A stretch of 64,000 nt of DNA from NCBI GenBank assembly GCA_017409825.1, contig JAFQRZ010000012.1, positions 1 to 64,000 of the forward strand, in the 5' to 3' direction. Made by a program: the position numbers and the translations under genes. The DNA comes from Agathobacter sp. (GTDB lineage Bacteria; Bacillota; Clostridia; Lachnospirales; Lachnospiraceae). Below, piece by piece: positions 14,707 through 34,820 of the stretch (position 1 is the first letter of the stretch; every line of letters begins with the position of its first letter). The notes under the pieces were generated by a model, which saw nothing but the letters and a program-made list of their open reading frames with translations, was not told where the DNA came from and searched no databases.

Positions 14707-14935
14707 CAGGGGCTATACCAAATTATTTTCTAAATACTATGAAAAGCGGCTTGTATATATTTAAAGTTTGGACACGCTTTCGCTCTTAGCGGTGACGTCG
14801 CGTTACTAAATTCGTATCAAGTTAACACTTGCTACTTATTAAGTAACGACTACCGCTAAAGGTCCAATTTTAAATATATACAAGCCGCTTTTCTTACTTT
14901 TCTGAATAATACTAATTCCATTCTCCCCTGTTTTT
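14707..14935 (+). terminator. outer arms of pncB terminator around an element
   Basis: CAGGGG directly after the pncB stop (14707-14712) pairs with CCCCTG at 14925-14930, which is followed by TTTTT. The 151-bp element at 14742-14892 is nested between the two arms. The element may have split an older terminator, or the whole may act as one. Confidence 0.4.
14742..14892 (-). repeat. family-1 structured palindromic element, copy A
   Basis: A 151-bp element. The outer arms 14742-14765 and 14869-14892 are perfectly complementary over 24 nt. Read on the minus strand, the interior contains the shared core: ACCTTTAGCGG, then GTTACTTAATAAG, a small apical hairpin with CAAG/CTTG, CGAATTTAGTAACG, and CCGCTAAGAGCGAAAGCGTGT split over the 3' side. 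The core is nearly identical to copy F in the opposite orientation and clearly related to copies B and G. No protein is encoded. Confidence 0.85.
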
Positions 14936-15002
14936 GTAAGTAAAAAAATCTTTCATTCATAACTACCATTTAAATAAAAATTGAGGTAGTACAATAAAGT
15001 AA

Positions 15003-15156
15003 GAAATCAGCCATGTATTATATGTAAATGAGCACCATTAGGCGTCGCCGGCACTTAGCAAGCGACACCCTCACGGGTGTTGCGAGCTTAGTACCGCTGC
15101 GTAACGCCTATGAGTGAAAACGTGTGCAAATTTATATATAATACATGGCTGATTTC
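15003..15156 (+). repeat. family-1 structured palindromic element, copy B
   Basis: A 154-bp element with 27-nt outer arms (15003-15029, 15130-15156) carrying one G-U type mismatch. The core keeps the CACCATTAGGCG start, ACTTAGCAAG, CGAGCTTAGTACCG and GAGTGAAAACGTGTG landmarks. The apical stem here is CGACACCC/GGGTGTTG, with no sequence similarity to the apical stems of the other copies. A further inverted pair (14976-14990 and 15168-15182) encloses the element and ends at the stop codon of the minus-strand glycosyltransferase gene. Confidence 0.8.
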
Positions 15157-15180
15157 GTATATTATAGACTACCTCAATTT

Positions 15181-16194
15181 TTAGTTAAAGCCGATTACTT
15201 TCTGTCCGATATGATACAATCCAACCGCAAACTTACGTCCTGCTTCGCCAGGAAGATTGAATGCGAGTCCGAAAACCCCATGTCTTAACTTCTTGTAAAG
15301 CTGCTCGTCAGTTTCTTTTATGTATGCCCAAAGGTCAGCCTTCTTCTGAAGAAGTTCATCTGAGCCATCAATTAAACACATGATTGTAGAAACTGCTGTA
15401 ATAATTTCTACGTAATTGTACAAATATTTGTAAAGCTGTTTGTTTTCAATCGTCCAGGAAGAAAACTTGTCAATCATCAGCTTATTTACCTTCATCTGCT
15501 GGTCAATACGACGAATCATAACCGTTTCATTAACAGACTGGTCATCACGTCCGATGAAGTATCTGTAGAAATCTACATCCATGTAATACATTTTCTTCAC
15601 ACTTGGAAGTGGATTGAATACGTAAATATTATCTACATAGAAGGTGTGTTTTGGAAGTTCTAATCCACATTCGCGAATCATTGCTGTTCTGTAAATTACA
15701 GAATGCATTAAGATATACTGTCCTTTAAAGAAACGCAGCTTATCATTCCATGAAAATTCCACGTCCTTTGGCACGCCACTCTGACGCATTACCTGTTTGT
15801 GCTTTGCACCTTCTTTTTCATATACATAGTTCGCAAGGAGCATATCCAAATAATTTTCATCGCTATCATATTCACGAAGTTTATTTAAAATTGCTTTATA
15901 CGCATCTGGATCTATCCAGTCATCACTATCTACAACTTTGAAATAACGTCCTGTTGCATTACGGATGCCCGCATTTACCGCTTCTCCATGACCACCATTT
16001 TCCTGGTGAATCGCACGACAAATCGTTGGATATTTCGCAGCATACGCATCTGCGATTTCTGCTGTACGATCCTTAGAACCATCATTTACAATAAGAATTT
16101 CTACATCTTCACCACCTACTAAGATGGATTCGATACATTTTTCCATATAAGCTTCTGAGTTATAACAAGGAATTGCAAAACTTAATAATTTCAT
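15181..16194 (-). CDS. family 2 glycosyltransferase
   Basis: GT-A fold glycosyltransferase of 337 aa that probably transfers a sugar from a nucleotide-sugar donor to a cell-surface glycan. The N-terminal FAIPCYNSEAYMEKC, the IVNDGSKDRT nucleotide-binding segment and the DSDDW metal-binding motif (89-93) are clear. The C-terminal 130 aa hold mixed hydrophobic segments but no clear membrane anchor. The ATG at 16194 has GAGAGG upstream; a longer frame lacks one. It is a single gene between pncB and mutY, so context gives no acceptor. Confidence 0.88.
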   Translation of the reverse strand: MKLLSFAIPCYNSEAYMEKCIESILVGGEDVEILIVNDGSKDRTAEIADAYAAKYPTICRAIHQENGGHGEAVNAGIRNATGRYFKVVDSDDWIDPDAYKAILNKLREYDSDENYLDMLLANYVYEKEGAKHKQVMRQSGVPKDVEFSWNDKLRFFKGQYILMHSVIYRTAMIRECGLELPKHTFYVDNIYVFNPLPSVKKMYYMDVDFYRYFIGRDDQSVNETVMIRRIDQQMKVNKLMIDKFSSWTIENKQLYKYLYNYVEIITAVSTIMCLIDGSDELLQKKADLWAYIKETDEQLYKKLRHGVFGLAFNLPGEAGRKFAVGLYHIGQKVIGFN

Positions 16195-16445
16195 AAATTT
16201 CCTCTCTTCTATAAAATAATTATCATTTGTCCCCTCATTTTTACACCATTTTCCATTATACACAATTTGTTCAATTAGTCGATTTAAAAATATTTAATTT
16301 TTTATGAAGTTTTCCTTGATGTTCATAATTTGTTCACAAAATAATCACAAAAGAAACATATCGATTTCACATTTACCTCCTATACTAACATTATAGAACA
16401 CAAGAGATAAATTTTTCCTTCTCATAATAAATCTTTTTCATAACA

Positions 16446-16474
16446 AAACCGGTGCACGCCACATGCACCGGTTT
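16446..16474 (-). terminator. terminator of mutY
   Basis: Perfect 11-bp stem (16446-16456/16464-16474) with a 7-nt loop, followed on the minus strand by TTTTGTT, just after the mutY stop at 16490. Confidence 0.75.
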
Positions 16475-16489
16475 CCTCTTTTTCTATGT

Positions 16490-17698
16490 CTATTCTGTTT
16501 TATCCTCCGCCTTCGCGATTGCTTCCTTCCCAATTACCATATTCAGATACTCTGCATATTTCACAAACGCACTTGGAATCGCGTAATTCGCCTTGGTTTC
16601 TTCGACATCCACAAACACCCAGTTCTGAGGCTCTTGCGGCATTTGCAATATGTGCAATTCGTTTTCGCTAAGCGGTTCTGCTCCTGTAAATTCCTTTGCC
16701 TGCAAAAATACCACATATCCCTTCATGTGCCATTCCACATGAGAAAAAATATGCTTTGCTTCACAGGCTGGCTGGATACGAACCGGTGTATAACCTTGTA
16801 TCTGAATATATGTGACTGCTTCCTGCTCGCTTAAATGTCCTTCTACATTTGGAAGCTCATATAACCCCGCCAAAAGGCCTTTGTCTGGTCTTTTATGCAA
16901 TGCTAGCTGTTCCCCGTCTTTTATAATAAAAACTGTCTTTTTCTCAATCCTTCTTGCTTTCGCTTTTGTCTTGACTGGAATCTCAGCAATTCTATCCTGT
17001 TTTCTCGCTTCACACAAATCTTGCCATGGACACACCTCACAGCGAGGGGCTCCATTTGGAAGGCAGACCATAGCTCCAAGTTCCATGAGAGCCTGGTTAA
17101 AGATGGACGGAATCACCCTATCTGCAACTTCTCCTGTCGTCTTGGAAGTTTCTTCCTGACCCATATCGGAGTTCATAAGCTCTAGAAGTTTCTCTTCCAT
17201 GTGCGTCCGCACGCTCTGTTTCATGATATCGCTATCATCCGCAGTCACACGCGAAATCACGCGAAGCACGTTACCATCTACCGCTGGAACCGCCTTGCCA
17301 TAGGCAATCGAAGCAATGGCACCTGCGGTATAGTGTCCGATACCTTTTAGCTTCAACAGTTTCGCATACTCCTCTGGAATAACACCATCATATTCCTCTA
17401 AAATCTGATTTGCGGCAATTTTTAAATTTCTAGCTCTGTTATAATACCCCAGCCCTTCCCATAGTTTGAGAAGCTTATCCTCTGGACACTCCGCCAATGC
17501 CTTTACATCCGGAAGCTCCCGAATAAATCGGTCAAAATATGGCTTCACTGCCTCTACTCTGGTCTGCTGCAGCATAATCTCAGAAATCCATACATAGTAG
17601 GCAATTGGATTTTCGCGCCAAGGCAACACACGCGCATTTCCTCGGAACCAGGTTTGGAGTGGTTTAACTAATTGTTTTAAATCATAATTATTCATCAT
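16490..17698 (-). CDS. mutY: A/G-specific adenine DNA glycosylase
   Basis: Base-excision repair enzyme, 402 aa, removing adenine mispaired with 8-oxoguanine. The catalytic glutamate is near 40 (SEIMLQQTR), the helix-hairpin-helix with LKGIGHYTAGA is near 117-127, and the catalytic aspartate is near 141 (VPAVDGN). A [4Fe-4S] cluster is supplied by C212, C220, C223 and C229; the first spacing is seven residues rather than the usual six. A C-terminal NUDIX-like domain follows. No ribosome site precedes the start: a -10 TATAAT ends 7 nt before the ATG at 17698, so the mRNA appears leaderless. A TTG six codons upstream lies inside that -10 region and is unlikely. Confidence 0.93.
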   Translation of the reverse strand: MMNNYDLKQLVKPLQTWFRGNARVLPWRENPIAYYVWISEIMLQQTRVEAVKPYFDRFIRELPDVKALAECPEDKLLKLWEGLGYYNRARNLKIAANQILEEYDGVIPEEYAKLLKLKGIGHYTAGAIASIAYGKAVPAVDGNVLRVISRVTADDSDIMKQSVRTHMEEKLLELMNSDMGQEETSKTTGEVADRVIPSIFNQALMELGAMVCLPNGAPRCEVCPWQDLCEARKQDRIAEIPVKTKAKARRIEKKTVFIIKDGEQLALHKRPDKGLLAGLYELPNVEGHLSEQEAVTYIQIQGYTPVRIQPACEAKHIFSHVEWHMKGYVVFLQAKEFTGAEPLSENELHILQMPQEPQNWVFVDVEETKANYAIPSAFVKYAEYLNMVIGKEAIAKAEDKTE

Positions 17699-17705
17699 GA
17701 GATAT

Positions 17706-17735
17706 ATTATACCCAATCATTATGCTTTTTTTCAA
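17706..17735 (-). promoter_or_regulatory. promoter of mutY giving a leaderless mRNA
   Basis: TTGAAA (17735-17730), 18-nt spacer, TATAAT (17711-17706). Transcription should begin at about 17699, essentially on the first base of the ATG at 17698. Confidence 0.6.
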
Positions 17736-17749
17736 TACATCTTTTCTCA

Positions 17750-17778
17750 TTGAATTTCACACACTTTTGCCATATACT
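17750..17778 (+). promoter_or_regulatory. promoter of the 17822 gene
   Basis: TTGAAT (17750-17755), 17-nt spacer, TATACT (17773-17778), divergent from the mutY promoter. Confidence 0.5.
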
Positions 17779-17821
17779 ATATACATGGTATTTAATAACA
17801 TACAGAATTGGGGGAACACAA

Positions 17822-18874
17822 ATGAAAAAACTAAAAAAAGAAACCATACGTCACATTCTGCCTTTACTGATTATTTTTTGGGGCGTGGCATCCCTTTTTC
17901 TCATGGTAGGTATATCTGACTCAGCAACCGTTGCAGATGGCCCTACTCCATTAGAAGAAGTGGATTTTTCTGGAGATATTGACGGCTTGTATGTCACCGG
18001 AACAATCTATTATATTTATGACTGCTATTGCGAAGTTACAGAAGAAGAAATCGTAACACGTAGAGAATATCTCATTGATGCAAATGATTATTATTACATG
18101 GCACTACGTGCAGACGATAGCGACATCCAGGCCGCAGACACACTTTTGGACGCAAGCTATTCCTACTATCTTGGTGAAGATGACGGAACAAAATTGGTCG
18201 CTGCTCAATACGAAATAACTGGTGTCATTGAAAAAATCCCAGACTCAACCTTAGAATACTATCATGATTACATCGAATGGGATACCTTGGATGACGCATC
18301 GAAAGAAACTTTCCTTCCATACTACATAAGGGTCACCGACTATGAATCAGATGCTGCTACCAGTCTCGTAATATCCATTATCTTCTTTATTTGTGGTGGA
18401 ATATTCCTTGCAATGGCATTAGCTGGTTTCTATCAGAGAACCGTGAAAAAATACATCAAAGCAAGTCCTTCACCAGAACTTGCAAAACAGAAAGTAGATA
18501 ACTTTGTTGAAAACACACCTATCATAAATGGTATGCGTTGCAACAACGAATTTATCTTAGGAAATAATATTGGTGTAACAATTTTCGGTGAAACCTCCAA
18601 AGTAGCTTGGGTATACTTACACACCACTACTCACCGCATATTATTTATTCCAATTTACAAAAATTATAATATCTATTTCGGCTTTGCAGATGGAACCCTT
18701 CAGGCTGCTGCCACTAAAAACAAAAAAACTGCCGCAGCTACTCTCGAAATGCTACAGCAGTACTGTACAAAAGCTGTTTTTGGTTATACCCCAGAACTAG
18801 CTCAGATGTTTAGAAAAAATCGTGAAGAATTCTTAAATATAAAATATAATTCTCCAGAAGAAGTTGTAGAATAA
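17822..18874 (+). CDS. two-helix membrane protein of unknown function
   Basis: Unrecognised protein of 350 aa. A membrane segment at about 12-32 (HILPLLIIFWGVASLFLMVG) is followed by some 155 residues, acidic and tyrosine-rich, expected outside the cell. A second membrane segment lies near 190-212 (LVISIIFFICGGIFLAMALA), and a C-terminal cytoplasmic domain of about 135 residues contains aromatic beta-like strands (TTHRILFIPIYKNYNIYFGF). The ATG at 17822 follows GGGGGA. The layout suggests an envelope sensor or a component of an unknown surface process. It is monocistronic, with a terminator at 18880-18920. No function is assigned. Confidence 0.6.
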   Translation: MKKLKKETIRHILPLLIIFWGVASLFLMVGISDSATVADGPTPLEEVDFSGDIDGLYVTGTIYYIYDCYCEVTEEEIVTRREYLIDANDYYYMALRADDSDIQAADTLLDASYSYYLGEDDGTKLVAAQYEITGVIEKIPDSTLEYYHDYIEWDTLDDASKETFLPYYIRVTDYESDAATSLVISIIFFICGGIFLAMALAGFYQRTVKKYIKASPSPELAKQKVDNFVENTPIINGMRCNNEFILGNNIGVTIFGETSKVAWVYLHTTTHRILFIPIYKNYNIYFGFADGTLQAAATKNKKTAAATLEMLQQYCTKAVFGYTPELAQMFRKNREEFLNIKYNSPEEVVE

Positions 18875-18879
18875 ATAAA

Positions 18880-18920
18880 AAGGGCTGTCGACAAATTTAT
18901 ATTTTTTTGCGACAGCCCTT
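18880..18920 (+). terminator. hairpin after the 17822 gene
   Basis: Stem 18880-18890/18910-18920 (11 bp) with a 19-nt AT-rich loop containing seven T residues. A clear 3' U tract is lacking. Confidence 0.5.
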
Positions 18921-19049
18921 CGTTTCAATCAGCGCTGTTTTCAATTTTTTTCTAGCACTTACAATAAAAATAATAGGGTAGACGATATGAACTAACTAAA
19001 CTATCCATTTACATCACTTGACTATCATTCTCCAAATATCTTTTGCGTT

Positions 19050-19973
19050 TTAAATATATTCAAAATATTCCAATAATCTTTTATAAGCTTCTTGCGAAGC
19101 TCTACAAGTTTCAACTAAATATCCTTTTTCTGATGTATACTCTTTTAGTCCTCTTCTGTAATAATCCTTTGATGTATCTTCGATTATAAATGGTGGAATG
19201 TTATATTTTAAACACTCCTTAAACATAATTAATCTACCTACACGACCATTCCCATCTTGAAACGGATGAATCTTTTCAAAGTTATAATGAAAATCAATAA
19301 TATCTTCAAATGTTATATTACTGTTTTCTCTGTATTTTTTTAACAACTGTCTTATTTCTGATGCTACTTTTGAAGGATGAGTTGTTTCTACCATATCCCC
19401 TATCATATTTGGACGTTTTTTATAATCTCCAACAGCAAACCATTCTTTTTGACTATCAGTTGTCCCACTCTTTAATAATAAATGGATACGCTTCATAATA
19501 TCTTCTGACAGCTCCTTGTCTGCTACGGATAGAATATAGTCAAAACATCTAAAGTGGTTTACTGTTTCAATAATATCGTCAACTTTTTCAGCCCCCTCTG
19601 TAACACCAATCGTTTGAGTTTCATAGATGCTTCTCGTTTGGTCTTCCGTTAATCGGCTGCCTTCCATATGATTTGAATTATATGCTAACCTAACTTGCGT
19701 TTGATGGTACAATCCACCTTTTAATTTTATATCCTGCTCTTCTCTAAGTCTGAAAAGTATTGAATTTTCATCTATTTCTTTTTCGCAAGACAAAATAGCA
19801 CCCGGCTGACAATCGAAATAATTACACAAACTCTGTATTGTGGACATAGCAACTTCTTCATTTTTAGAAAGTTTAGCCATTGTCGCAGAAGATATTCCAA
19901 TCTCATTTTTTAGTTTCTCTTTAGTTATTTCTCTTTCTTCCATCATTAAGAATAGTTTTTTATACGAAATCAT
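19050..19973 (-). CDS. HTH-Fic protein (AMP transferase type)
   Basis: Protein of 307 aa. Residues 1-65 are a Cro/C1-type helix-turn-helix. The Fic domain carries HPFQDGNGRVGR at 236-247, matching the catalytic HxFxxGNGRxxR motif with all key residues present. An inhibitory-helix motif S100-NHM-E104-G lies N-terminal to the core, as in class II Fic enzymes, so activity is probably autoinhibited. Fic enzymes AMPylate target proteins, often topoisomerases, and can act as toxins. The HTH probably autoregulates through the palindrome at 20016-20031. The target is unknown. Confidence 0.88.
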   Translation of the reverse strand: MISYKKLFLMMEEREITKEKLKNEIGISSATMAKLSKNEEVAMSTIQSLCNYFDCQPGAILSCEKEIDENSILFRLREEQDIKLKGGLYHQTQVRLAYNSNHMEGSRLTEDQTRSIYETQTIGVTEGAEKVDDIIETVNHFRCFDYILSVADKELSEDIMKRIHLLLKSGTTDSQKEWFAVGDYKKRPNMIGDMVETTHPSKVASEIRQLLKKYRENSNITFEDIIDFHYNFEKIHPFQDGNGRVGRLIMFKECLKYNIPPFIIEDTSKDYYRRGLKEYTSEKGYLVETCRASQEAYKRLLEYFEYI

Positions 19974-20001
19974 TTAATACACCACCCTTCTAGATATATG
20001 C

Positions 20002-20031
20002 AGTATATCATATACGTTTACTTTTGTAAAC
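20002..20031 (-). promoter_or_regulatory. promoter and palindromic operator of the Fic gene
   Basis: TTTACA (20030-20025), 17-nt spacer and TATACT (20007-20002) on the minus strand. The -35 is embedded in the 16-bp palindrome GTTTACTTTTGTAAAC (20016-20031), a likely site for the protein's own HTH domain. Confidence 0.6.
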
Positions 20032-20144
20032 ATATCATCTTTAGTTATCTAAATCTGCAAATCTCTAATTTCACAGCCTTACAAACCACTTAGTAATTCT
20101 TTCTTAGTATTCCCATGTTGGTTGAATATCTGTAAAATCACTAC

Positions 20145-20241
20145 TTGATTTAACGGTTCAATCATAATATACTACATAAGTCGAAACGCAAACTGCGTAA
20201 ATCGGAAGTGGCACATACTTCGGTATGTGTCTTTTTATTTT
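20145..20241 (+). ncRNA. candidate small RNA with its own promoter and terminator
   Basis: TTGATT (20145-20150), 17-nt spacer and TATACT (20168-20173) predict a start near 20180. A TTCG-loop hairpin (20212-20218/20223-20229) followed by TTTTTATTTT ends at about 20241. No plus-strand gene lies upstream to need this terminator, so a transcript of about 60 nt is suggested. It contains a second small GCA/TGC hairpin and no convincing reading frame. The remaining bases of 19974-20314 hold no recognisable gene. Confidence 0.4.
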
Positions 20242-20314
20242 AGCAAATGCTTCTCCCATGCATATTTCCCCCACCTTCCAGACACACTAATAAAAATGGT
20301 AAAGGAGATATTTT

Positions 20315-20773
20315 ATGGTATTAACACAGAAAGAAACCGAAGCTCTCAAAGACTTGCAGACTCAGGAGCAGTCCTGTATCGAGAAATACACCCGCTATTC
20401 GCAGGAAGCGAAAGACCCACAACTAAAGGATTTATTTAAAGAACTATCCGCCGAAGAACAAAAGCATTATCAGTCTCTTGGACAGGCATTGAATGGTCAG
20501 GTTCCAAGTGTGGACTGCAACGACACCAAAGGACGCGACTATCAACCAAAGGCTTATTACACACCAAATGACAACTCTCCCGAAAAAAGAACAGACCAGT
20601 TCCTCGTAACCGATTGCATCGGAACAGAAAAACTGGTTTCTGGTGAATATAACAATGACGTTTTCATTTTTGGAAACTCTGATATCCGCAAACTTCTTGC
20701 TGACATTCAGATTGAAGAACAGAATCACGCAGAGATGCTGTGGAAATACAAAACTACAAATGGTATGGCATAA
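20315..20773 (+). CDS. CotF-like ferritin-fold spore coat protein
   Basis: Protein of 152 aa with two helical ExxxH-like repeats (LSAEEQKHYQSLG near 43-55 and IQIEEQNHAEMLW near 132-144), the pattern of the coat F/ferritin-like family. Members are spore coat components in Bacillus and widespread in Clostridia; some may bind metals. Start supported by AAAGGAGA. It is monocistronic with a strong terminator, and presence of the ger/spoIIR genes in the window fits a sporulation role. No sporulation promoter was identified upstream. Confidence 0.75.
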   Translation: MVLTQKETEALKDLQTQEQSCIEKYTRYSQEAKDPQLKDLFKELSAEEQKHYQSLGQALNGQVPSVDCNDTKGRDYQPKAYYTPNDNSPEKRTDQFLVTDCIGTEKLVSGEYNNDVFIFGNSDIRKLLADIQIEEQNHAEMLWKYKTTNGMA

Positions 20774-20780
20774 TTTATGA

Positions 20781-20806
20781 AAAGAGTGGCTTTTTTGCCA
20801 CTCTTT
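20781..20806 (+). terminator. terminator of the CotF-like gene
   Basis: Perfect 10-bp stem (20781-20790/20797-20806) with a T6 loop, ending in TTTTT. Confidence 0.85.
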
Positions 20807-20861
20807 TTCACTATTCCTACACTTCAAAACTATTACAATCGATTTACTTTGTTAGATTTGA

Positions 20862-20871
20862 TTGTATACAA
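20862..20871. promoter_or_regulatory. FadR/GntR-type operator match TTGTATACAA
   Basis: A perfect 10-bp palindrome fitting the tnGTnnACna pattern bound by FadR-subfamily GntR repressors, followed closely by another GTTGTAT half-like sequence. It lies 55 nt upstream of the kdgK -35. Related sites occur near uxuB (30561-30570) and over the ispE-gntR start (47000-47009). Confidence 0.45.
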
Positions 20872-20925
20872 GTTGTATTAATTTAAAAACATAGTATTTT
20901 TGTCCAAAAAATCCCATTTAGCTTG

Positions 20926-20953
20926 TTGACAAATTCTGCGTATCAAGTAAAAT
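20926..20953 (+). promoter_or_regulatory. promoter of kdgK
   Basis: TTGACA (20926-20931), 16-nt spacer, TAAAAT (20948-20953). The leader that follows contains a hairpin (20965-20973/20978-20987) before the AAAGGAG ribosome site. Confidence 0.65.
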
Positions 20954-21028
20954 TATAAATAGCAAGGTTTCGCTTTGGCGAAAGCCTAAGCGAGTAAATT
21001 TTTTCAAAGAAAAGGAGAAGAAAAAACT

Positions 21029-22126
21029 ATGGATTTGAATTTAAGACCAGCAAGTGAATGCAAATTTGATGCGGTATCTCTCGGTGAAGTAATGCTTCGT
21101 CTTGATCCAGGCGAAGGACGTATCCGTACAGCAAGACAGTTCCGCGCTTGGGAAGGCGGCGGCGAATACAACGTTGTTCGTGGTCTTCGTAGATGCTTCG
21201 GTTTAAGAACAGCTGTTATCACAGCTTTCGCTGACAACGAAGTAGGTATGTTGATGGAAGACTTCATCCTTCAGGGTGGTGTTGATACATCCCTTATCAA
21301 ATGGATGAAGACAGACGGTATCGGCCGTGTTTGCCGTAACGGTATCAACTTCACAGAAAGAGGATATGGTATCCGTGGTGCAGTTGGATGTTCTGACCGT
21401 GCTAACACAGCTATCTCTAAAGCTACACCAGCTGATTTCGATTTCGACTACATCTTTGGCGAACTCGGTGTAAGATGGTTACATACAGGCGGTATCTACG
21501 CTGCATTATCTGAAGAAGCTTGTGAAACAGTTATCGCTGCTTGTAAAGCTGCTAAGAAATACGGCACAATCGTATCTTATGACTTAAACTACAGACCTTC
21601 TATGTGGAGCGCTATCGGCGGTCTTGAAAAAGCTCAGGCTGTTAACAAAGAAATCGCTCAGTACGTAGACGTTATGATCGGTAACGAAGAAGACTTCACA
21701 GCATGTCTTGGTTTCGAAATCGAAGGTAACGACGAAAACTTAAAAGAACTCAACATCGAAGGCTACAAGAAGATGATCAACGAAGCTGTTAAGACATATC
21801 CTAACTTCAAAGCAGTTGCTACAACTCTTCGTGAAGTTAAAACAGCTACAGTTAACGATTGGTCAGCTCTTTGCTGGGCAGGTGGAGAAATCTACAAAGC
21901 TAAAGACTACAAGGGTCTTGAAATCATGGACCGTGTAGGTGGCGGTGACTCATTCGCTTCAGGTTTAATCTACGGATTAATGACAACAGGTGATGCTGAA
22001 ACAGCTGTTAACTACGGTGCAGCTCATGGCGCACTTGCTATGACAACACCAGGTGACACAACAATGGCTAGCAAAAAAGAAGTTGAAGCTATTATGGGTG
22101 GCGCTGGCGCTCGTGTACAGAGATAA
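21029..22126 (+). CDS. kdgK: 2-keto-3-deoxygluconate kinase, PfkB family
   Basis: Ribokinase-fold sugar kinase of 365 aa. The N-terminal SLGEVMLRLDPGEGR and the C-terminal catalytic VGGGDSFASGL (aspartate near 311) define the PfkB family. Sitting upstream of uxuA, it most likely phosphorylates KDG to KDPG with ATP. It is about 25 aa longer than the paralogue at 27105. Codons are strongly biased (AAC, TAC, GGT, CGT), indicating high expression. AAAGGAG precedes the ATG. An alternative is a related fructose or 5-keto-gluconate kinase; the pathway context favours KDG. Confidence 0.85.
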   Translation: MDLNLRPASECKFDAVSLGEVMLRLDPGEGRIRTARQFRAWEGGGEYNVVRGLRRCFGLRTAVITAFADNEVGMLMEDFILQGGVDTSLIKWMKTDGIGRVCRNGINFTERGYGIRGAVGCSDRANTAISKATPADFDFDYIFGELGVRWLHTGGIYAALSEEACETVIAACKAAKKYGTIVSYDLNYRPSMWSAIGGLEKAQAVNKEIAQYVDVMIGNEEDFTACLGFEIEGNDENLKELNIEGYKKMINEAVKTYPNFKAVATTLREVKTATVNDWSALCWAGGEIYKAKDYKGLEIMDRVGGGDSFASGLIYGLMTTGDAETAVNYGAAHGALAMTTPGDTTMASKKEVEAIMGGAGARVQR

Positions 22127-22174
22127 TTCTTTACGCAAGCAAATATTGGCTATTGCAATTTAGTTATTTAAATT

Positions 22175-24914: not shown

Positions 24915-25215
24915 CGAGTTAGTTAAGAATTAAGTTTTTCGATAAACTACGAAATCAGCCATTATATTATATTTAAGGTCTAGTTTTAAATATAATATAA
25001 TGGCTGATTTCTTACTCTATGGATATTCCTTAATTCTTATCTAAATGTGTTATTCTTATATCAAGGGGGACGAAGCCCGAACTTACTAGGAATAACATTA
25101 CCTGTTATAATAAATTATTTACCTCTCAGCTTCCTTACCTTGCATTATTTTAGGAATTAAGCTATGATAACACTATCAAGGAAAGCATGAACTTTACATA
25201 TTGGAGGAAATGAAA
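24915..25215. other. spacer with element E, no other gene
   Basis: Apart from element E (24951-25011) and its flanking inverted pair (24919-24934 with 25029-25044), this spacer contains only AT-rich sequence and the ribosome site of the PspC gene. No gene is seen. Confidence 0.6.
24951..25011. repeat. palindromic element E, core-deleted form
   Basis: Perfect 26-nt arms (24951-24976, 24986-25011) around a 9-nt loop GGTCTAGTT. The arm foot GAAATCAGCCAT is shared with copy B, and the loop resembles the junction next to the core in copy F (ACTAGACC reversed). It looks like a family-1 element that lost the ~90-nt core. Confidence 0.7.
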
Positions 25216-25410
25216 ATGGAAAAAAGATTATATAAAAGCAAAGAAAACAGAATGTTAGATGGTGTATGCGGTGGTATTGCAGAATATTTTAATATTGATC
25301 CTACCATCGTAAGACTTGCTTGGGCTATCTTCAGCTTAGCAGGTGGTTCTGGAGTTCTTGCTTACATCATCGCACTTATCATCATCCCAGAAAGACCACA
25401 CAACATGTAA
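25216..25410 (+). CDS. PspC-domain small membrane protein
   Basis: Protein of 64 aa matching the PspC domain: RLYKSKENRMLDGVCGGIAE, then YFNIDPTIVRLAW and one hydrophobic segment (about 35-58) ending IIPERP. Such proteins are linked to envelope stress in other bacteria; small stand-alone versions are common in Clostridia. The ATG at 25216 is placed 8 nt after GGAGG; a TTG and an ATG slightly upstream overlap that ribosome site. It is a single gene convergent with uxaC. The exact role is unknown. Confidence 0.85.
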   Translation: MEKRLYKSKENRMLDGVCGGIAEYFNIDPTIVRLAWAIFSLAGGSGVLAYIIALIIIPERPHNM

Positions 25411-25457
25411 AAGATTACAACGGCTTGCATATAATATGCAGGTCGTTTTTATTTCCT

Positions 25458-25671
25458 CTTGAAACTAAGTAGTTTCTCCAAAAAAAGAAACGCGGCTTAT
25501 ATATATTTAAAACTAGACCTTTAGCGGTAGTCGTTACTTAATGAGTAGCAAGTGTTAGCTTGATACGAATTTAGTAACGCGACGTCACCGCTAAGAGCGA
25601 GAGCGTGTCTAGACTTTAAATATATATAAGCCGCGTTTCGAAGTATTTAGATAAAACTACTTAGTTTCAAG
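25458..25671. repeat. outer inverted repeat around element F
   Basis: 18-nt arms at 25458-25475 and 25654-25671 enclose element F. The right arm contains the last codons and stop of uxaC, so the left arm is an inverted copy of a gene end, as seen at uxuA. Confidence 0.7.
25487..25639 (+). repeat. family-1 structured palindromic element, copy F
   Basis: A 153-bp element with perfect 25-nt outer arms (25487-25511, 25615-25639), extended by CTAGAC/GTCTAG. The core on the plus strand is nearly the same as copy A on the minus strand. On the minus strand the left arm runs into TTTTTTT, so it probably terminates the uxaC transcript. Confidence 0.85.
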
Positions 25672-27078
25672 ATCAAATCCAAAATATCTTACTGCATTAT
25701 TATATGCAAGACCTTTTGCAATCTTTTCTAATGCTTTTTCATCATTTGGATATTCGCCATTTTCAACCCATCCACCGATAAGTTCACAAGCGATACGACG
25801 GAAGTATTCATGTCTTGTGTATGATAAGAAGCTACGAGAGTCTGTTAACATACCGATGAAGTTTCCGAGCAATCCAAGGTTTGCAAGAGATACCATCTGG
25901 TCAATCATACCCTGTTTGTTATCATTGAACCACCAAGCAGAACCCTGCTGAATCTTGCCTACACATGAAGAATCCTGGAAGCATCCAAGGATTGTTCCGA
26001 TAGCTGCGTTGTCGATTGGGTTTAATGAATAAAGGATTGTCTTTGGCAACTGGTCTGAGCTAGCTAATGCATTTAAGAAATCAGCCATTTCAGATGATGG
26101 TGTATAGTTGCTAATACAGTCAATACCAGCATCTGGTCCAAGTTTACGGAAGATACTCTGGTTGTTATCACGTTTTACACCATAGTGAAGCTGCATTACC
26201 CAGTTTTTCTTGTGGTATTCTTTTCCAAGTTCTACCATGAAAGCTGTTTCGAATTTCTTCACTTCTACTTTAGAAACAAGTTCGCCAGCAAGACGTTTTG
26301 CAACGATTGCTTCTACTTCTTCTGCTGTAGCTGGTTCATACATTACATAATCTAAGCTGTGGTCAGAGATTGTACATCCATTTTCGTTGAAGTAATCAAG
26401 ACGTACTCTTAACGCTTCGATTAATGTAGCAAATGAGTTTACAGTTACACCAGAAACTTCTGATAATTTTGCACAGTAATCAACGAAACCTGGTTTGTTG
26501 ATACCCATGGCTTTTTCAGGTCTCCAAGCTGGAACTACCTGTACATCAAATGTTTCATCTGCTTTGATTTTCTGATGCCATTCCAATGTATCTACAGGAT
26601 CATCTGTCGTACATACTAATGTAACATTAGACATTTTGATAAGTCCACGTGCAGAGTATTCTGGCTGCTGTAATTTTTCGTTACAGATATTCCATACTTC
26701 TTCTGCTGTTTCACCACAGAGGTGTCCTTCATATCCGAAGTATCTCTGTAATTCTAAATGGCTCCAGTGATATAATGGGTTTCCGATAGCCATTTCAAGT
26801 GTTTCAGCCCATTTCTGGAATTTTTCTCTGTCTGTTGCGTCACCTGTGATGTATCTTTCTTCTACACCATTAGAACGCATCTGACGCCATTTGTAATGGT
26901 CAGCACCAAGCCAAACCTGTGTAATGTTTTCAAATTTTCTGTCTTCATAGATTTCCTGTGGATTGATGTGGCAGTGGTAATCCAATACTGGAGTTACAAC
27001 TGGAGATGCATAATCATGATACAGATGTTTTGCTGTATCTGTTGTTAAAAGGAAATCTTTGTCCATAAATTTTTTCAT
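25657..27078 (-). CDS. uxaC: glucuronate isomerase
   Basis: Amidohydrolase-like isomerase of 473 aa interconverting D-glucuronate with D-fructuronate, and D-galacturonate with D-tagaturonate. DYHCHINPQEI near 33-43 carries N-terminal metal ligands, and the LHYGVKRDNNQSIFRKLGPDAG segment near 300 is typical of the family. GGGGAAAA precedes ATG. It is last in the order uxuB-kdgA-kdgK-uxaC and lies 26 nt after kdgK. The 3' end is embedded in an inverted repeat with element F. Confidence 0.97.
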   Translation of the reverse strand: MKKFMDKDFLLTTDTAKHLYHDYASPVVTPVLDYHCHINPQEIYEDRKFENITQVWLGADHYKWRQMRSNGVEERYITGDATDREKFQKWAETLEMAIGNPLYHWSHLELQRYFGYEGHLCGETAEEVWNICNEKLQQPEYSARGLIKMSNVTLVCTTDDPVDTLEWHQKIKADETFDVQVVPAWRPEKAMGINKPGFVDYCAKLSEVSGVTVNSFATLIEALRVRLDYFNENGCTISDHSLDYVMYEPATAEEVEAIVAKRLAGELVSKVEVKKFETAFMVELGKEYHKKNWVMQLHYGVKRDNNQSIFRKLGPDAGIDCISNYTPSSEMADFLNALASSDQLPKTILYSLNPIDNAAIGTILGCFQDSSCVGKIQQGSAWWFNDNKQGMIDQMVSLANLGLLGNFIGMLTDSRSFLSYTRHEYFRRIACELIGGWVENGEYPNDEKALEKIAKGLAYNNAVRYFGFDLETK

Positions 27079-27104
27079 TGTTAATTTTCCCCGTTCTTTC
27101 TTTT

Positions 27105-28130
27105 TTAACGTTTCATTTCGCTTACATAACCGCCTGTATGGTTATGATCTGCAATAAGGTTATCAATTTCTTCCAAGTCCATAGATGGCATATCGCCAGG
27201 AATGGTGTTCTTACCTGCACTACGTGCATTACCATAAGCAAGTGCTTTCTGGCAATCCATATCATATTTCAACAAGCCATAAAGAACACCTGCACAATAC
27301 TGGTCACCACTACCAATACGGTCGATAACTTCGATGTTTCTGTATGGTTCTTCTTCATAATACTTGTCTTCTTTTGCATTATAAATAACGGAACCGAAGC
27401 TGTGCTGTTTTGGGCTGTGTACCGTTCTCTGCGTTGCAGCTACGATAGAAATTGGATATTCCTCTGTAAAGCTCTTTAAAATCTGTTTCAAATCGCCTTC
27501 TTTTTTGAAGGTCAAACGTGCCGTATCTTCCGAACAGAAGAATACGTCTACATAAGGCAAAATACCTTCAATACATTCTTTCGCTTCTTCACCTGTCCAA
27601 AGGTTGCCACGGAAGTTTACGTCAAAGGAAATCATAACACCATTTTCCTTGAACTTCTTAATCATCTCGATGGTAGTTTCTCTACAATCTTTGCTGAGCG
27701 CCAAAGTAATACCTGATGTGTGGAAACATCTCGTATTGGTGTACATTTCTTCATCAATATCTCCAATGTGGAGTCTTGTGATGGAAGAATTCGCTCTGTC
27801 GTATACAACCTGTGGTTTTCTTGGGAAAGCACCCATTTCATAGTAGTAAATACCTAAACGGGCATCTTTCTCATGATCATAAATCAAATAGTCGTCACTT
27901 ACACCATTGAAACGAACTTTATTTCGAACGAAATCACCAAGTGCAGAATCTGGAATCTTGGAAACCACGCCAGTGCGTAAACCGTTCAGCGAAACCCCAC
28001 ACGCAACGTTCAGTTCAGCACCACCGATGTGTTTTTCAAACATCTTACACTTTGAAATACGCTCATTTCCTTGTGGTGAAAGACGAAGCATAATTTCCCC
28101 AAGGGTAAGTAAATCAAATTTCTTATCCAT
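27105..28130 (-). CDS. kdgK: second 2-keto-3-deoxygluconate kinase, PfkB family
   Basis: PfkB-type kinase of 341 aa, paralogous to the protein at 21029. The N-terminal LLTLGEIMLRLSPQGNER and the C-terminal DRIGSGDQYCAGVLYG with the catalytic aspartate are present; the residues after GD (QYC) differ from the SFA of the other copy. AGGAG precedes ATG. Position between kdgA and uxaC supports KDG as substrate, but the divergence from the other copy leaves room for a different acid sugar. It sits 72 nt after kdgA, with a hairpin in between. Confidence 0.82.
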   Translation of the reverse strand: MDKKFDLLTLGEIMLRLSPQGNERISKCKMFEKHIGGAELNVACGVSLNGLRTGVVSKIPDSALGDFVRNKVRFNGVSDDYLIYDHEKDARLGIYYYEMGAFPRKPQVVYDRANSSITRLHIGDIDEEMYTNTRCFHTSGITLALSKDCRETTIEMIKKFKENGVMISFDVNFRGNLWTGEEAKECIEGILPYVDVFFCSEDTARLTFKKEGDLKQILKSFTEEYPISIVAATQRTVHSPKQHSFGSVIYNAKEDKYYEEEPYRNIEVIDRIGSGDQYCAGVLYGLLKYDMDCQKALAYGNARSAGKNTIPGDMPSMDLEEIDNLIADHNHTGGYVSEMKR

Positions 28131-28160
28131 ACCTTATTCTCCTAAATAAATAAAAGCAAA

Positions 28161-28189
28161 TATAGGCTGTCGTGAATCGACAGCCTATA
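28161..28189 (-). terminator. intercistronic hairpin between kdgA and kdgK
   Basis: A perfect 12-bp stem (28161-28172/28178-28189) with a TGAAT loop inside the operon. Lacking a run of T it is more likely an RNA-stability or attenuation element than a full terminator. Confidence 0.55.
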
Positions 28190-28202
28190 CATAAATATTT
28201 GA

Positions 28203-28841
28203 TTAGCCACGCATTTCTTTTACGATTGCTGCTGCTTCAGCTGTTAATTCTTTAATCTTTTCGAAATCACCAGCTTTGATTAAATCACCAGAGCACATCC
28301 AGCTACCGCCACAAGCGATAATTCTGTCGTATGCTAAGTAATCTCTTACGTTTGATGGGCTGATTCCGCCTGTTGGCATGAATTTAAGGCTTACGTATGG
28401 AGCTGCAAGAGCTTTAATCATTTTAAGTCCGCCTGCTGGTTCAGCTGGGAAGAATTTAACTACTTCTAAGCCGTTTTCGATACCCTGTTCCATATCAGAA
28501 GCGTTTGCTGTACCTGGAGTAATGCAGATGCCTTTTTCTACACAGTATTTAACGATTCTTGGGTTTAAACCTGGGCTTACGATGAATTCAGCACCAGCTG
28601 CTACTGCACGGTCAACCTGTTCAGTTGTGATAACTGTACCAGCGCCAAGTAACATATCTGGGAATTTTTCTTTCATGATGCGGATTGATTCTTCAGCAGC
28701 ATCTGTACGGAAAGTAACTTCTGCACATGGAAGTCCACCTTCGATAAGAGCTTTTGCTAATGGTTCAGCATCTTTCACATCGTTGATAACTACTACTGGA
28801 ATAATACCAGTTTTCTGGATTTTTTCTAATACTGGATTCAT
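28203..28841 (-). CDS. kdgA: KDPG/KHG aldolase
   Basis: Class I aldolase of 212 aa splitting 2-keto-3-deoxy-6-phosphogluconate into pyruvate and glyceraldehyde 3-phosphate. The catalytic glutamate is in EVTFRT (about 41), and the Schiff-base lysine near 129 in VVKFFPAEPAGG. Length is standard. AAAAGGAGAGG precedes ATG. It follows uxuB by 24 nt in the same operon and completes the hexuronate pathway. Confidence 0.96.
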   Translation of the reverse strand: MNPVLEKIQKTGIIPVVVINDVKDAEPLAKALIEGGLPCAEVTFRTDAAEESIRIMKEKFPDMLLGAGTVITTEQVDRAVAAGAEFIVSPGLNPRIVKYCVEKGICITPGTANASDMEQGIENGLEVVKFFPAEPAGGLKMIKALAAPYVSLKFMPTGGISPSNVRDYLAYDRIIACGGSWMCSGDLIKAGDFEKIKELTAEAAAIVKEMRG

Positions 28842-28865
28842 AATATATACCTCTCCTTTTTAATA

Positions 28866-30470
28866 TTAAACGTATTTTTTAAGTGTAGCTCTAACTGCAC
28901 CAGGACCAGCGATTAATTCTGTGAAGTACTGTACTGTTAAATCAGCAAGTCCAACTTCATAAAGGTCTACACCAAAGATAGCTTTGTTTGTAAGTAATGG
29001 TTTGATTGTTTCTTCAACGTCTGTATCACCAAGCTTGATGCCAGCAACGATTGGGCAAACAGTATCAAGCAATGGATCTGGGCTGAGTTCGAATGCTTCG
29101 CCGTTGTCATCGATAGCCATTAAATATCTCATCCATCCTGCAAATACCATAGGGATTAATTTGAGTTCTCCAAGGTCTTTGCCGTCTTTGATGTAATTCT
29201 TAATTGTTTCACCGAAACGGATTGCAAGTTTCTGAGATGTATCAGTAGCAATACGCTGTGGTGTATCAGGCATGAATGGGTTTGGAATACGAACGTTAAG
29301 TACTGTATCGATGAATTCTTTTGGATCAAGGATACCAGGGTTAACTACTACTGGAAGACCTTCTACGTATCCAACTCTTTCAACGAGTTTCTTAAGTTCT
29401 GCGTCTTTCATTTCTTCAGAAATCTTTTCGTATCCAAGTAAGCAACCGAATACTGCAAGAGTTGTATGAAGTGGGTTAAGACATGTACAAACTTTCATTC
29501 TTTCTACTTTGTCTACTGTTTCGCGTTCTGTGAAAATGAATACTTCTTCTAATTCTGCTGGACGTCCGTTAGGGAACCAGTCTTCGATTACAAGGTATTC
29601 TGTTTCTTCTGCATTAACGAATGGAGCTACATAAGTATTCTTAGATGTGATAACTGGTTCAAGACCTGTAATATCATCTTCGTTAAGGATAGCTTCTACA
29701 GAAGCATCTGGTCTTGGTGTAATCTTATCAATCATTGACCATGGGAATGCAACTTTGTTTCTATCGTTGATGTAATCAACAAATCCCTGATCTACTAAGC
29801 CATTTTTAGCCCAGCCTTCTGCGAATGCATTGATAGCTGCGTATAATTTGTCACCATTGTGTGAGCAGTTGTCCATAGAAACCATAGAAACTGGTGCAGC
29901 ACCGTTCTGGTAACGTGTTACTAATAAAGAAGCAACTTTACCAATGTAGCTAGCTGGTTTAGCAGGACCGTTAGCCATGTCAGCAACTACTGCTGGAAGC
30001 ATTTCGCCTTTACCATCTACAAGGCTGTAACCTTTTTCTGTAATTGTGAATGAACACATCTGTAAAGAATCTTTACAGAAGATTTCTTTTAATCTTGAGT
30101 ATTCAGCATCGTCTTCTGAATCAAGTACACATGATTCTACAACAGCACCTACAACTGTTTTTTCGATTGTACCGTTTGCTTTTAATGTAACGAGGATTGT
30201 GTAATCATCGTGTGGACGGTTCATTTTCTGTACGATTTCATAGTCGAAACCTTCAGCAACGATAAGACCTCTGTCCATTTTGCCGCTGTTTAAGATTTTC
30301 TGCATATCATTTGCCTGGAACGCACGGAAAATATTTCCTGCACCAAAGTGAATCCAGAATGGATTTTCTTTTGTAGCAGCTGTAACTGCTTCTCTGTCGA
30401 ACTGTGGGAGGTTGTAACCTTTCGCTTCCCACTCTGCACGGTTCTGTAAACCTACATTACTTAATTCCAT
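28866..30470 (-). CDS. uxuB: fructuronate reductase (mannitol dehydrogenase family)
   Basis: Long-chain polyol dehydrogenase of 534 aa, expected to reduce D-fructuronate to D-mannonate with NADH. The N-terminal FWIHFGAGNIFRAFQ nucleotide-binding segment (near 36-50), the SMDNCSHNGDKL motif with the catalytic lysine (about 200) and CLNPLHTTLA (about 338) are family signatures. The ATG at 30470 has AGGAG 9 nt upstream; the longer frame contains promoter sequence. First gene of the minus-strand hexuronate operon. Tagaturonate reductase (UxaB) is a close relative, but uxuA nearby favours UxuB. Confidence 0.88.
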   Translation of the reverse strand: MELSNVGLQNRAEWEAKGYNLPQFDREAVTAATKENPFWIHFGAGNIFRAFQANDMQKILNSGKMDRGLIVAEGFDYEIVQKMNRPHDDYTILVTLKANGTIEKTVVGAVVESCVLDSEDDAEYSRLKEIFCKDSLQMCSFTITEKGYSLVDGKGEMLPAVVADMANGPAKPASYIGKVASLLVTRYQNGAAPVSMVSMDNCSHNGDKLYAAINAFAEGWAKNGLVDQGFVDYINDRNKVAFPWSMIDKITPRPDASVEAILNEDDITGLEPVITSKNTYVAPFVNAEETEYLVIEDWFPNGRPAELEEVFIFTERETVDKVERMKVCTCLNPLHTTLAVFGCLLGYEKISEEMKDAELKKLVERVGYVEGLPVVVNPGILDPKEFIDTVLNVRIPNPFMPDTPQRIATDTSQKLAIRFGETIKNYIKDGKDLGELKLIPMVFAGWMRYLMAIDDNGEAFELSPDPLLDTVCPIVAGIKLGDTDVEETIKPLLTNKAIFGVDLYEVGLADLTVQYFTELIAGPGAVRATLKKYV

Positions 30471-30519
30471 AGTATTAACGATCTCCTTTCGTTTTGACAC
30501 TTTATTCATGTTACCTAAT

Positions 30520-30570
30520 ATTATAAGGCTTTTCCAATAAAACCGCAAGATATTTTATACAAGTATACAT
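30520..30570 (-). promoter_or_regulatory. promoter and operator region of uxuB
   Basis: TTGCGG (30548-30543), 17-nt spacer, TATAAT (30525-30520). Upstream is AAGTATACAT (30561-30570), part of TGTATACTTGTATA on the minus strand, similar to the GntR-type sites at 20862 and 47000. A second possible promoter (TTGAAG, TATAAA) has this site in its spacer. Confidence 0.5.
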
Positions 30571-30609
30571 TATGTCTTCAAAGAAATTTGTGTACTTTTC
30601 ATAATACAA

Positions 30610-30646
30610 AAGGGAATGCCAAAAATTCCTTTATTGACATTCCCTT
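30610..30646 (-). terminator. terminator of the GH5 gene
   Basis: Stem AAGGGAATG/CATTCCCTT (30610-30618/30638-30646), extended past a mismatch, followed on the minus strand by TTTTGTATT. Confidence 0.75.
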
Positions 30647-30653
30647 AGACAAA

Positions 30654-32021
30654 CTATTTTTTATTGTATTCCTGAATTACATCATATAGTGTAGCTGTTA
30701 CACAATTTTCGGTTTTTACCTTTTCACAGGTTGCCAAATATTCCTCATAGGTACAAGTCGCAATATTGCATTTGGTATCCTCATTTTCTGTAATCGCTTT
30801 AAGCTGGCAGGTATAAACGCCCCAAGAAGTGGTCCACCAGCCGGTAACGGTCGATTTATAATTCCAAATCGTCCACGAATAATTTCTCTGGTCCAAAAGC
30901 GCAAATGTATCTGCCCAGGCTTCCCTATCCTCAAACAAGGTAAACTCTCCAATAAGCACCGGCACATCATAATCGCGTCCAATATTATACAAGTCGTAAT
31001 ATGCATACAGCAGTTCATTTGGCAAAATATTGGACCACCAATTATACCAATGATATTCGTACTGCACATTTTCCCAGCCATAATCTACAGGATCTGGAAG
31101 CTTGCCAAAATCCCAGCAGCCTTCCATCGTAATCACATGCGCATCTCCGTTGGCACGAATCACATCATAAATTTGGTCAAACACTTCCCAGCATTCTGGA
31201 GTCGTCTGTGTGTTATATTCATAGGTTGGCTCATTTAATATATCATAGGTTGCAATCCACTTGCCGAGCTCCGGCTTGGTCTCGGTATAATGCTTGGAAA
31301 CGAATCTCCAAAGCTCTACTGTCGCTTTCACATTTTCTTCACTGGTCCAAAGTCCTGCTACCCTGTCTTTTCGACCAGAGTGTTCGAAACCATTCTGGCT
31401 ACCTGGTGCACCGTGCAAATCAAGCACTACATATAACTCCTGCTTTGCAGCCTCTTCCATAAACCAGTCAAGGTAAGCAAAAGCATCTTCTTCTGATTTT
31501 AAGGTAAGGTCTTCATTTAAAATATTTAGATAATAGAATGGAAGACGGATGGTATTCATCTGCAAATCTTCTTTGATGATACGGAAATCTTCTTCTGTGA
31601 AAAAAGCATCCCAATAAATTCTCATCAATTCTTCCATATCGTAGGTATTTAAGTTTGGATTTGACTTAATTCCTTCACGAAATTCTTCTTCCGTAAATTC
31701 TGGATACTGAATATTGTTGTCTGCATCCTTCACATAAGAACCATCTTCATTCTTCAACGGTTCCAACGCAAACGGACTCATCCAGCCTTCCTGTAAAAGA
31801 ATCTGGCCTGCATTGATACCATGTAAAACAAGCTGGTTTCCTTCTGCGTCGTAAAGAGATTTGCCTGACGCCTGCACTAAGCCGGTCGTGTTTTCGATTT
31901 TGTTTATTTTTTCTTCATAAGTATAATTCTGCGAATATGTAACAAAACAATCTAAGAAAATGACCACTGCCAAAAGAATTACACCTACAAATAAAAATAC
32001 ATTTTTTACTATTTTTTTCAT
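30654..32021 (-). CDS. membrane-anchored family 5 glycoside hydrolase
   Basis: Protein of 455 aa with an N-terminal membrane anchor or uncleaved signal (about 5-27), then a (beta/alpha)8 GH5-type catalytic domain outside the cell. The acid/base glutamate is E264 in ILNEPT and the nucleophile E359 in VLIGEFT; LVLHGIN (near 65) and the HG pair near 203 are also typical. It probably cleaves beta-glucans or related plant polysaccharide; the subfamily was not determined. It lies next to the hexuronate genes but is separated by a terminator, so co-regulation is not shown. Confidence 0.85.
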   Translation of the reverse strand: MKKIVKNVFLFVGVILLAVVIFLDCFVTYSQNYTYEEKINKIENTTGLVQASGKSLYDAEGNQLVLHGINAGQILLQEGWMSPFALEPLKNEDGSYVKDADNNIQYPEFTEEEFREGIKSNPNLNTYDMEELMRIYWDAFFTEEDFRIIKEDLQMNTIRLPFYYLNILNEDLTLKSEEDAFAYLDWFMEEAAKQELYVVLDLHGAPGSQNGFEHSGRKDRVAGLWTSEENVKATVELWRFVSKHYTETKPELGKWIATYDILNEPTYEYNTQTTPECWEVFDQIYDVIRANGDAHVITMEGCWDFGKLPDPVDYGWENVQYEYHWYNWWSNILPNELLYAYYDLYNIGRDYDVPVLIGEFTLFEDREAWADTFALLDQRNYSWTIWNYKSTVTGWWTTSWGVYTCQLKAITENEDTKCNIATCTYEEYLATCEKVKTENCVTATLYDVIQEYNKK

Positions 32022-32089
32022 AATATTCCCCTCATTTGTTCTTCATTTATTAGATGCAAGCCCATAAAATAATTCGTTTCAGAACGTAA

Positions 32090-32241
32090 GAAGTGGAGCT
32101 TACTATATGTTAAATGAACACCTTTAAGCGGCCGTCGTTACTTAATAAGCGGCGATGTAAATCGTCGCGAATTTAGTAACGCAACGAGTCCGCTTAGAGC
32201 GAAAGTCGTGTGTGAAGTTAACATATAGCAAGCTCCACTTC
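32090..32241 (+). repeat. family-1 structured palindromic element, copy G
   Basis: A 152-bp element with 24-nt arms (32090-32113, 32218-32241) carrying one mismatch. The core on the plus strand keeps ACACCTTTAAGCGG, GTTACTTAATAAG, CGAATTTAGTAACG and CCGCTTAGAGCGAAAG. The apical stem GCGGCGAT/ATCGTCGC differs from copies A, B and F but still pairs. AAAATAATT and AATTATTTT sequences flank the element, the latter overlapping the serS stop. Confidence 0.85.
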
Positions 32242-34813: not shown

Positions 34814-34820
34814 GAACAAG

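Follow-up and report, generated by a model that had tools for sequence, protein, structure and literature searches.

ERIC sequences are imperfect palindromes of about 127 bp that lie between genes in related genera and keep their sequence, REP palindromes and BIMEs often occur in inverted pairs and are tied to Y1 transposases, and attC sites are folded strands whose terminal stem varies while the extrahelical bases are conserved. REPs measure 20-40 bp (PMC3733652). Passages of PMC3049150, where ERIC is also mentioned, and of PMC10969869 describe BOX and RUP of Streptococcus pneumoniae and QMITE2 of Coxiella as short, non-coding, intergenic foldback miniature inverted-repeat transposable elements (MITEs); there, the terminal inverted repeats of BOX and RUP are hybridised in the fold, and QMITE2 is accompanied by direct repeats of 7-9 bp. 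Here we describe a family of palindromic repeats represented by four elements (e1 to e4) in 64,000 nucleotides of DNA from Agathobacter sp., a member of the Lachnospiraceae (contig JAFQRZ010000012.1, positions 1 to 64,000; hereafter the window). With moderate confidence, we regard it as a Lachnospiraceae family of non-autonomous, MITE-like foldback repeats whose arms are rewritten by template switching and whose core is kept as a folded strand.

Each of the four elements forms one long rod when folded, whichever strand is taken:

14741..14893, minus strand: element e1, core at 14763-14870, 93% identical to e3.
15003..15156, plus strand: element e2, core at 15027-15134, forming a divergent pair with e1.
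25487..25639, plus strand: element e3, core at 25510-25617; the relative G007 has a copy at the same site.
32090..32241, plus strand: element e4, core at 32113-32220, lying 3' of a minus-strand gene (32263-33552) which we take to encode seryl-tRNA synthetase.

A sequence-only reading had noticed these hairpins, and its coordinates are correct to within one base. Folding energies range from -73.4 to -86.1 kcal/mol on the strand it had chosen and from -70.4 to -83.9 kcal/mol on the opposite one. The order of landmarks that it described recurs when the four elements are aligned, with small corrections to the letters: e2 has GGCG rather than GCGG and GAGTGAAAACGTGT, e3 has GAGCGAGAGCGTGT and e4 has GAGCGAAAGTCGTGT. 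Its apical stems, said to be unrelated in sequence yet always paired, are indeed paired, but with e1 and e3 so closely alike, as members of one subfamily, only three of the four stems are independent. The elements had also been said to match no class known to that reading, and in Rfam there is no match in the window at the gathering score and none over the elements (14600-32400) up to an E-value of 5.

The family is abundant in its source genome and patchily distributed among relatives. A DNA search together with a covariance model (R1, built from 24 copies) locates it at 33 places in the genome at E < 1e-5, four of which are those of the window and four of which are shortened or cut by contig ends; ten weaker matches are places already listed, on the opposite strand. 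Many contigs of this assembly end within or next to a copy, as expected of repeats, which break assemblies. Among 60 genomes drawn from the same genus, 15 match, the source genome included. A second model (R2, 62 sequences) matches 158 of 397 Lachnospiraceae genomes and 140 of 334 genera, with at most nine candidates scored per genome, so that copy numbers in this draw are lower bounds. In a class-wide draw, 11 of 391 genomes match and all belong to the Lachnospiraceae, with no match in the roughly 375 genomes that, judging from their listing order, lie outside the family; both of these wider draws used stricter filters that lose weak matches. The relative G017 carries the repeat in at least 64 places, and since every scored one (64, then 40) of the 426-456 candidates in its initial scan was confirmed, it likely holds hundreds of copies, the best 40 matches being 91-100% identical to the query over most of its length. 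Carriage by phages, plasmids or viral contigs found no match in any of these sets, queried with a 211-bp G017 sequence, the 161-bp sequence of e3 and two exact patterns, respectively; exact patterns overlook much, since the gapped pattern matches 67 of 287 collected loci but, among those of the source genome, only L060. We found no report of this family in the literature searched, mainly freely accessible papers, which includes part of PMC8040213, where 3161 candidate structured RNAs, 250 of them palindromic, are given. As far as this search shows, it is a repeat family not described before, found across a large part of the Lachnospiraceae and without a match in Rfam.

Mobility is most apparent in G017, where the ends could be analysed in 36 collected copies that fit end patterns (46 had been listed earlier; copies with diverged ends were excluded). 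Twenty-one of the 36 are exactly 180 bp long, from TCCC to GGGA, and one more base on each side apparently belongs to the element. Exact direct repeats of 8 or 9 bp stand at the ends of 11 copies (for example, TTTGTATAA, TTTTATTA and TAAAATAA), and the longest flank repeat averages 5.69, compared with 4.36 for re-paired flanks (200 trials, maximum 4.86). Inverted flank copies were considered as another insertion signature and discarded, as they show no excess (4.47 versus 4.70). The direct repeats are taken as 8-bp duplications of an AT-rich target, and such duplications, together with the sharp ends, point to a MITE-like mobile repeat: a non-coding palindrome, shorter than the limit of about 600 bp usual for MITEs, with terminal inverted repeats and with target duplication in G017. 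The duplications were examined in this one genome, and the copies of the window would have arisen in the same manner. Of the two possibilities raised initially, that of a folded mobile repeat is thus well supported by copy number, by the many related G017 copies with duplications and by patchy presence; the other was a structured RNA.

Comparison of single sites adds to this picture. At the site of e1 and e2, the element is not seen by eye in G011, G039, G012 or G010, and at the site of e4 it is not seen by eye in G039, while G007 has a full copy at the e3 site and only a small hairpin at the e4 site. Among cores at most 1.5 kb apart there are 24 divergent, eight tandem and no convergent cases, although these counts are inflated because several loci were collected on account of a divergent pair already noticed; in the complete match list of the source genome there are, by our count, seven close pairs, all divergent.

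From outside in, the element consists of a variable outer stem, the motifs GTAAG and CGTAG(TATTTAGA), a second variable stem, roughly 25 pairs long, and the core; GTAAG before and CGTAG(TATTTAGA) after are conserved in most copies of the source genome. The core is made up of a short GAC/GTC stem, a three-way junction, a stem bearing a conserved bulge, another with an invariant U-U mismatch, tandem G-A and an apical stem that is free in sequence, and the third arm of the junction is, in our pairing, a two-pair hairpin with a GNRA loop (the model is one pair off). Across 57 distinct copies (alignment A6), the two U-U mismatch columns are each 100% conserved and the four tandem G-A columns 95, 95, 93 and 98%, and column A153 of the core is likewise 100% conserved. 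A GNRA loop is present in 112 of 119 distinct cores from alignments A5 and A6 (GAAA 54, GAGA 35, GCAA 9, GGGA 9, GGAA 3, GCGA 2), and the remaining seven pattern matches are GACA, which in the rows inspected lies 5' of a GNRA loop. The third loop position is a purine in all 112 loops, and a purine there suits an RNA loop more than a DNA loop. Among the most conserved core letters several are unpaired, and the mean information is 1.05 bits per paired and 0.89 bits per unpaired column, the paired mean being slightly higher because free loops are counted as unpaired.

The stems of the core covary well beyond chance, as had been suspected from four copies. In 24 copies of the source genome, 22 of 36 predicted pairs are kept through a change on both sides in at least one copy. 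In A5 (62 sequences), 29 of the 36 core pairs have changed on both sides with pairing kept, 93.0% of cells are paired compared with 72.8% after shuffling, and the covariation score is 0.508; shuffling lowers it to 0.168 (sd 0.007), and sliding the partners to 0.050-0.082. A6, whose copies come from other loci and mostly from other genera, again gives 29 of 36, with a score of 0.584 versus 0.192 shuffled and 0.064-0.115 slid. In both cases the copies are related and their alignment was fitted to the model structure; the shuffle and slide controls leave the kinship in place, so significance is overstated, but the gap to the controls is still large. A match to a known Rfam family or characterised MITE, or a lack of both significant covariation and further copies in relatives, had been named beforehand as results that would speak against a new structured element; none of these was observed, as Rfam has no match, covariation is strong and relatives hold many copies.

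The arms outside the core behave differently from what selection on an RNA would predict. In 112 distinct elements, where a median of 55.5 positions could be aligned on each side (with about 70 as the upper limit of the scan), arm cells comprise 4888 Watson-Crick, 144 G-U, 163 A-C and 541 other combinations and 324 gaps. RNA selection on one strand would favour G-U, and no such excess is seen, so arm pairing gives no RNA strand bias. Moreover, the arms vary in concert among the G017 copies, and in copy L090_2133 the right arm, by eye, matches the reverse complement of the left arm at all but one base, differences in length between the consensus arms included, a pattern expected from a single multi-base event. 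A similar process can be followed at e3, which, like e2, has a second, outer palindrome layer:

14969..14990, no strand: left outer inverted arm of e2, 95% complementary to the right arm.
15168..15189, no strand: right outer inverted arm of e2, extending to the 3' end of the minus-strand open reading frame (ORF) 15181-16263.
25446..25475, no strand: far-side outer inverted arm of e3 (87%), a reverse-complement copy of the 3' end of the adjoining gene.
25654..25683, no strand: gene-side outer inverted arm of e3, which is the 3' end of ORF 25657-27078.

The far arm of e3 copies, in reverse, the last codons and the stop of the adjoining gene, and it tracks a synonymous difference between the source genome and G007, with CTTG in both arms of one genome and TTAG in both arms of the other (one nearby base differs within the G007 pair). 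That a non-coding arm follows a synonymous change is most simply explained by copying, with selection for pairing as the alternative. Template switching both creates and maintains hairpins, as stated in PMC8794818, and we infer that the arms are re-matched by template switching during replication, without a need for RNA selection. An origin of the arms of the source genome from host terminators was ruled out, since the conserved GTAAG and CGTAG sit outside the variable arms. Taken together, the lack of a G-U excess and the concerted change within one genome mean that the initial step from covarying stems to RNA fails for the outer arms, whereas for the core RNA or single-stranded DNA is likely.

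These findings can be arranged into a possible history. A master copy would be moved in trans by a transposase that makes an 8-bp AT-rich target duplication, as in G017 and, by extension, in the window. New insertions would come to rest in intergenic DNA, which in the source genome mostly means a short distance 3' of a stop codon. There, the long palindrome may be re-matched by replication template switching, so that both arms would drift jointly to a new sequence at each locus, in the way suggested by the G017 copies and e3, and older copies may extend the palindrome into their flank. The core would be spared this levelling, with its mismatches, bulge, tandem G-A and GNRA loop kept throughout the family. 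Arm-on-arm copying would erase mismatches and bulges, yet the core keeps them, which argues that selection holds an imperfect fold on one strand. The core is thus probably used as a folded strand, of RNA or of single-stranded DNA, and it is most likely this strand that the mobilising machinery recognises. A narrower version, possible though somewhat doubtful, is that the identity of the element resides in the folded strand instead of its terminal sequence, with the GNRA three-way junction, the tandem G-A and the fixed bulges read, as RNA or single-stranded DNA, by a dedicated Lachnospiraceae mobilising protein, and with template switching left to rewrite almost all paired bases.

Several points weigh against this history. 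Exact 8-bp repeats are missing from 25 of the 36 G017 copies, and composites in the source genome, which terminate in AAATTCCGATTT..AAATCGGAATTT or AAATATCAATTT..AAATTGATATTT, have flanks that resemble inverted rather than direct repeats (their joining across contig ends is our reconstruction). Neither an autonomous copy nor a partner transposase came to light in searches that covered Y1, IS256, ISL3 and RVT_1. The wobble bias of the core (73 G-U versus 40 A-C, two counts with slightly different column rules) is marked only if a single column, which contributes 22 A-C cells, is omitted (73 versus 18), and that column is G-U on the other strand, which contradicts the preferred strand. Around the elements, promoter-like sites are about as common as in shuffles (2 versus 1.8, 4 versus 4.1 and 10 versus 11.6) and so give no help to the RNA half of the first interpretation. 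Part of the 83 double changes in G017 reflects sublineages rather than fresh events, selection for pairing could likewise make the arms change together, and conservation of the core could serve a host function instead.

In the source genome, 20 copies lie away from contig ends, and for 17 of them the distance between the 3' side of the core and the 3' end of an ORF is 40-67 bp. Among 173 copies at all collected loci (50 of them from G017, with ORFs called mechanically), the nearest ORF boundary within 500 bp of the 3' side is a 3' end for 96 and a 5' end for 52, and that of the 5' side is a 3' end for 77 and a 5' end for 60. In tandem gene contexts the two orientations number 40 and 33, and a fixed gene orientation, as in the source genome, was therefore dropped as a general rule. 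One may argue that a host-serving structured RNA, acting in cis at 3' ends or as a regulator, was copied around the genome, which would suit the RNA-like motifs of the core and its regular distance from stop codons in the source genome. We consider this unlikely: such an RNA would hardly be confined to 15 of 60 genomes of a genus, occupy at least 64 places with 8-bp duplications in G017, or lie in near-even orientation and with no excess of promoter-like sites, and at e1 to e4 transcription from the adjoining gene on the 3' side would yield not the GNRA strand but its opposite.

The same positions behind genes could suggest large transcription terminators, made of long stems edged by T-rich sequence at their 3' side, in which the centre is irrelevant. 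Arms in the source genome end in TTTC(TTAC) on the strand of the gene, behind stop codons, and both e1 and e2 lie, by eye, inside terminator-like stems, of which that around e1 is:

14706..14712, plus strand: left half (ACAGGGG) of a terminator-like stem split by e1, by eye.
14925..14935, plus strand: right half and T run (CCCCTGTTTTT) of the same stem, by eye.

The terminator scan covers loops of 3-8 only, and the stem split by e1 is therefore unlisted. A terminator, however, needs no such core, and here it is in the centre that conservation across genera resides; the duplications and high copy number indicate mobility, and some copies in other genera have, by eye, no T run. Terminators as the whole explanation are thus very unlikely.

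If the repeats are mobile, the question is by what means. Y1_Tnp (IS200/IS605) is present in 6 of 17 genomes and was not found in the source genome (G000), G017, G007, G055, G024 or G039; the IS256 transposase occurs in 2 of 9 and ISL3 in 5 of 19 genomes, neither being found in the source genome or G017. RVT_1 occurs in 13 of 24 genomes, including both of these, and was not found in the copy-bearing G007, G055, G024, G039, G388, G125, G159, G247 and G449, all of which are drafts except the single-contig G449; several of the genomes searched are incomplete. IS256, ISL3 and reverse transcriptase were rejected as general mobilisers, each being absent from several copy-bearing genomes, and so was the REP/RAYT route, as Y1 was not found in six copy-bearing genomes (several of these assemblies being incomplete). 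Mobilisation as folded single-stranded DNA by an enzyme that reads structure, in the manner of REP/RAYT or of attC and the integron integrase, would explain stems that are paired but free in sequence, fixed unpaired bases on one strand, and divergent pairs reminiscent of BIMEs. The distribution of Y1_Tnp speaks against it; in addition, enzymes of the RAYT or integrase type are not generally expected to make 8-bp duplications, which makes this account distinctly unlikely. Reverse transcription of the core RNA in trans, as in a SINE-like retroelement, is extremely unlikely given the nine copy-bearing genomes in which RVT_1 was not found, eight of them drafts, even though the core is RNA-like, RVT_1 is encoded in both the source genome and G017, and self-primed copying of a hairpin would be expected to yield perfect arms.

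Genes between divergent cores were considered as candidates for an autonomous copy and set aside: a methyltransferase-like ORF in G039 and a lipoprotein-like ORF in G075, named by eye and with no family search on either, are not transposase-like. The G039 arrangement (L265, 585-1957), in which two divergent copies with similar, unusually long apical arms flank the methyltransferase-like ORF, resembles a composite transposon. Lone terminal halves of the element, with the core absent, stand at G017 loci L099 (288) and L107 (283), and a second repeat family, with recurring motifs of the TTTTAGGTATACGATGA and CCTAAAATCTTTGAAAAA type, adjoins several G017 copies:

L103 380-650, L099 380-600, L107 400-560 and L217 2350-2600: second G017 repeat family.

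Beside the element in the single-contig relative G052 (L071, 1246-1500), overlapping ORFs with repeated short peptides suggest a short-repeat array. The window itself contains two hairpins that are probably element derivatives without a core, a relation judged by eye:

24939..25023, no strand: core-less hairpin with element-type flanks CTACGAAA..TTTCTTACTC and a loop with the e3-type TTTAAAACTAGACC (reverse strand).
34806..34910, no strand: core-less hairpin in which a 23-nt loop replaces the core and the outer motif is element-type.

Two further palindromes, in which the family core is not seen by eye, are located at 23986-24142 (67-nt arms, 82% complementary, 23-nt gap) and, between ORFs, at 22169-22259 (25-nt inverted arms, 92%, 41-nt spacer). 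The former has a permissive Rfam microRNA match of 51.6 bits against a gathering score of 211.

The mobile, MITE-like reading with a folded core raises the question of whether covariation in stems is always a sign of RNA selection. In the arms, covariation occurs with no strand bias and among the copies of a single genome, and replication alone may thus mimic the classic RNA signature, while a small core of the same molecule would bear the true constraint. If the core is indeed read as a folded strand, this would be a new recognition mode in transposition. Comparison with known systems sets the family apart in several respects. ERIC keeps its sequence, whereas the Lachnospiraceae repeats keep their structure and have new arms at each locus. 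Like REPs and BIMEs they are paired inversely, but they are longer, and Y1 was not found in the source genome or G017. They resemble attC in the type of fold, whereas their target duplications (in G017) and core motifs differ from those of attC sites. Finally, like QMITE2, BOX and RUP, the Lachnospiraceae repeats are short, non-coding, intergenic and foldback; unlike these elements, which the passages cited above present as recognised by sequence, their arms are free, and it is the fold and the unpaired letters of the core that persist across 140 of the 334 genera sampled in this one family.

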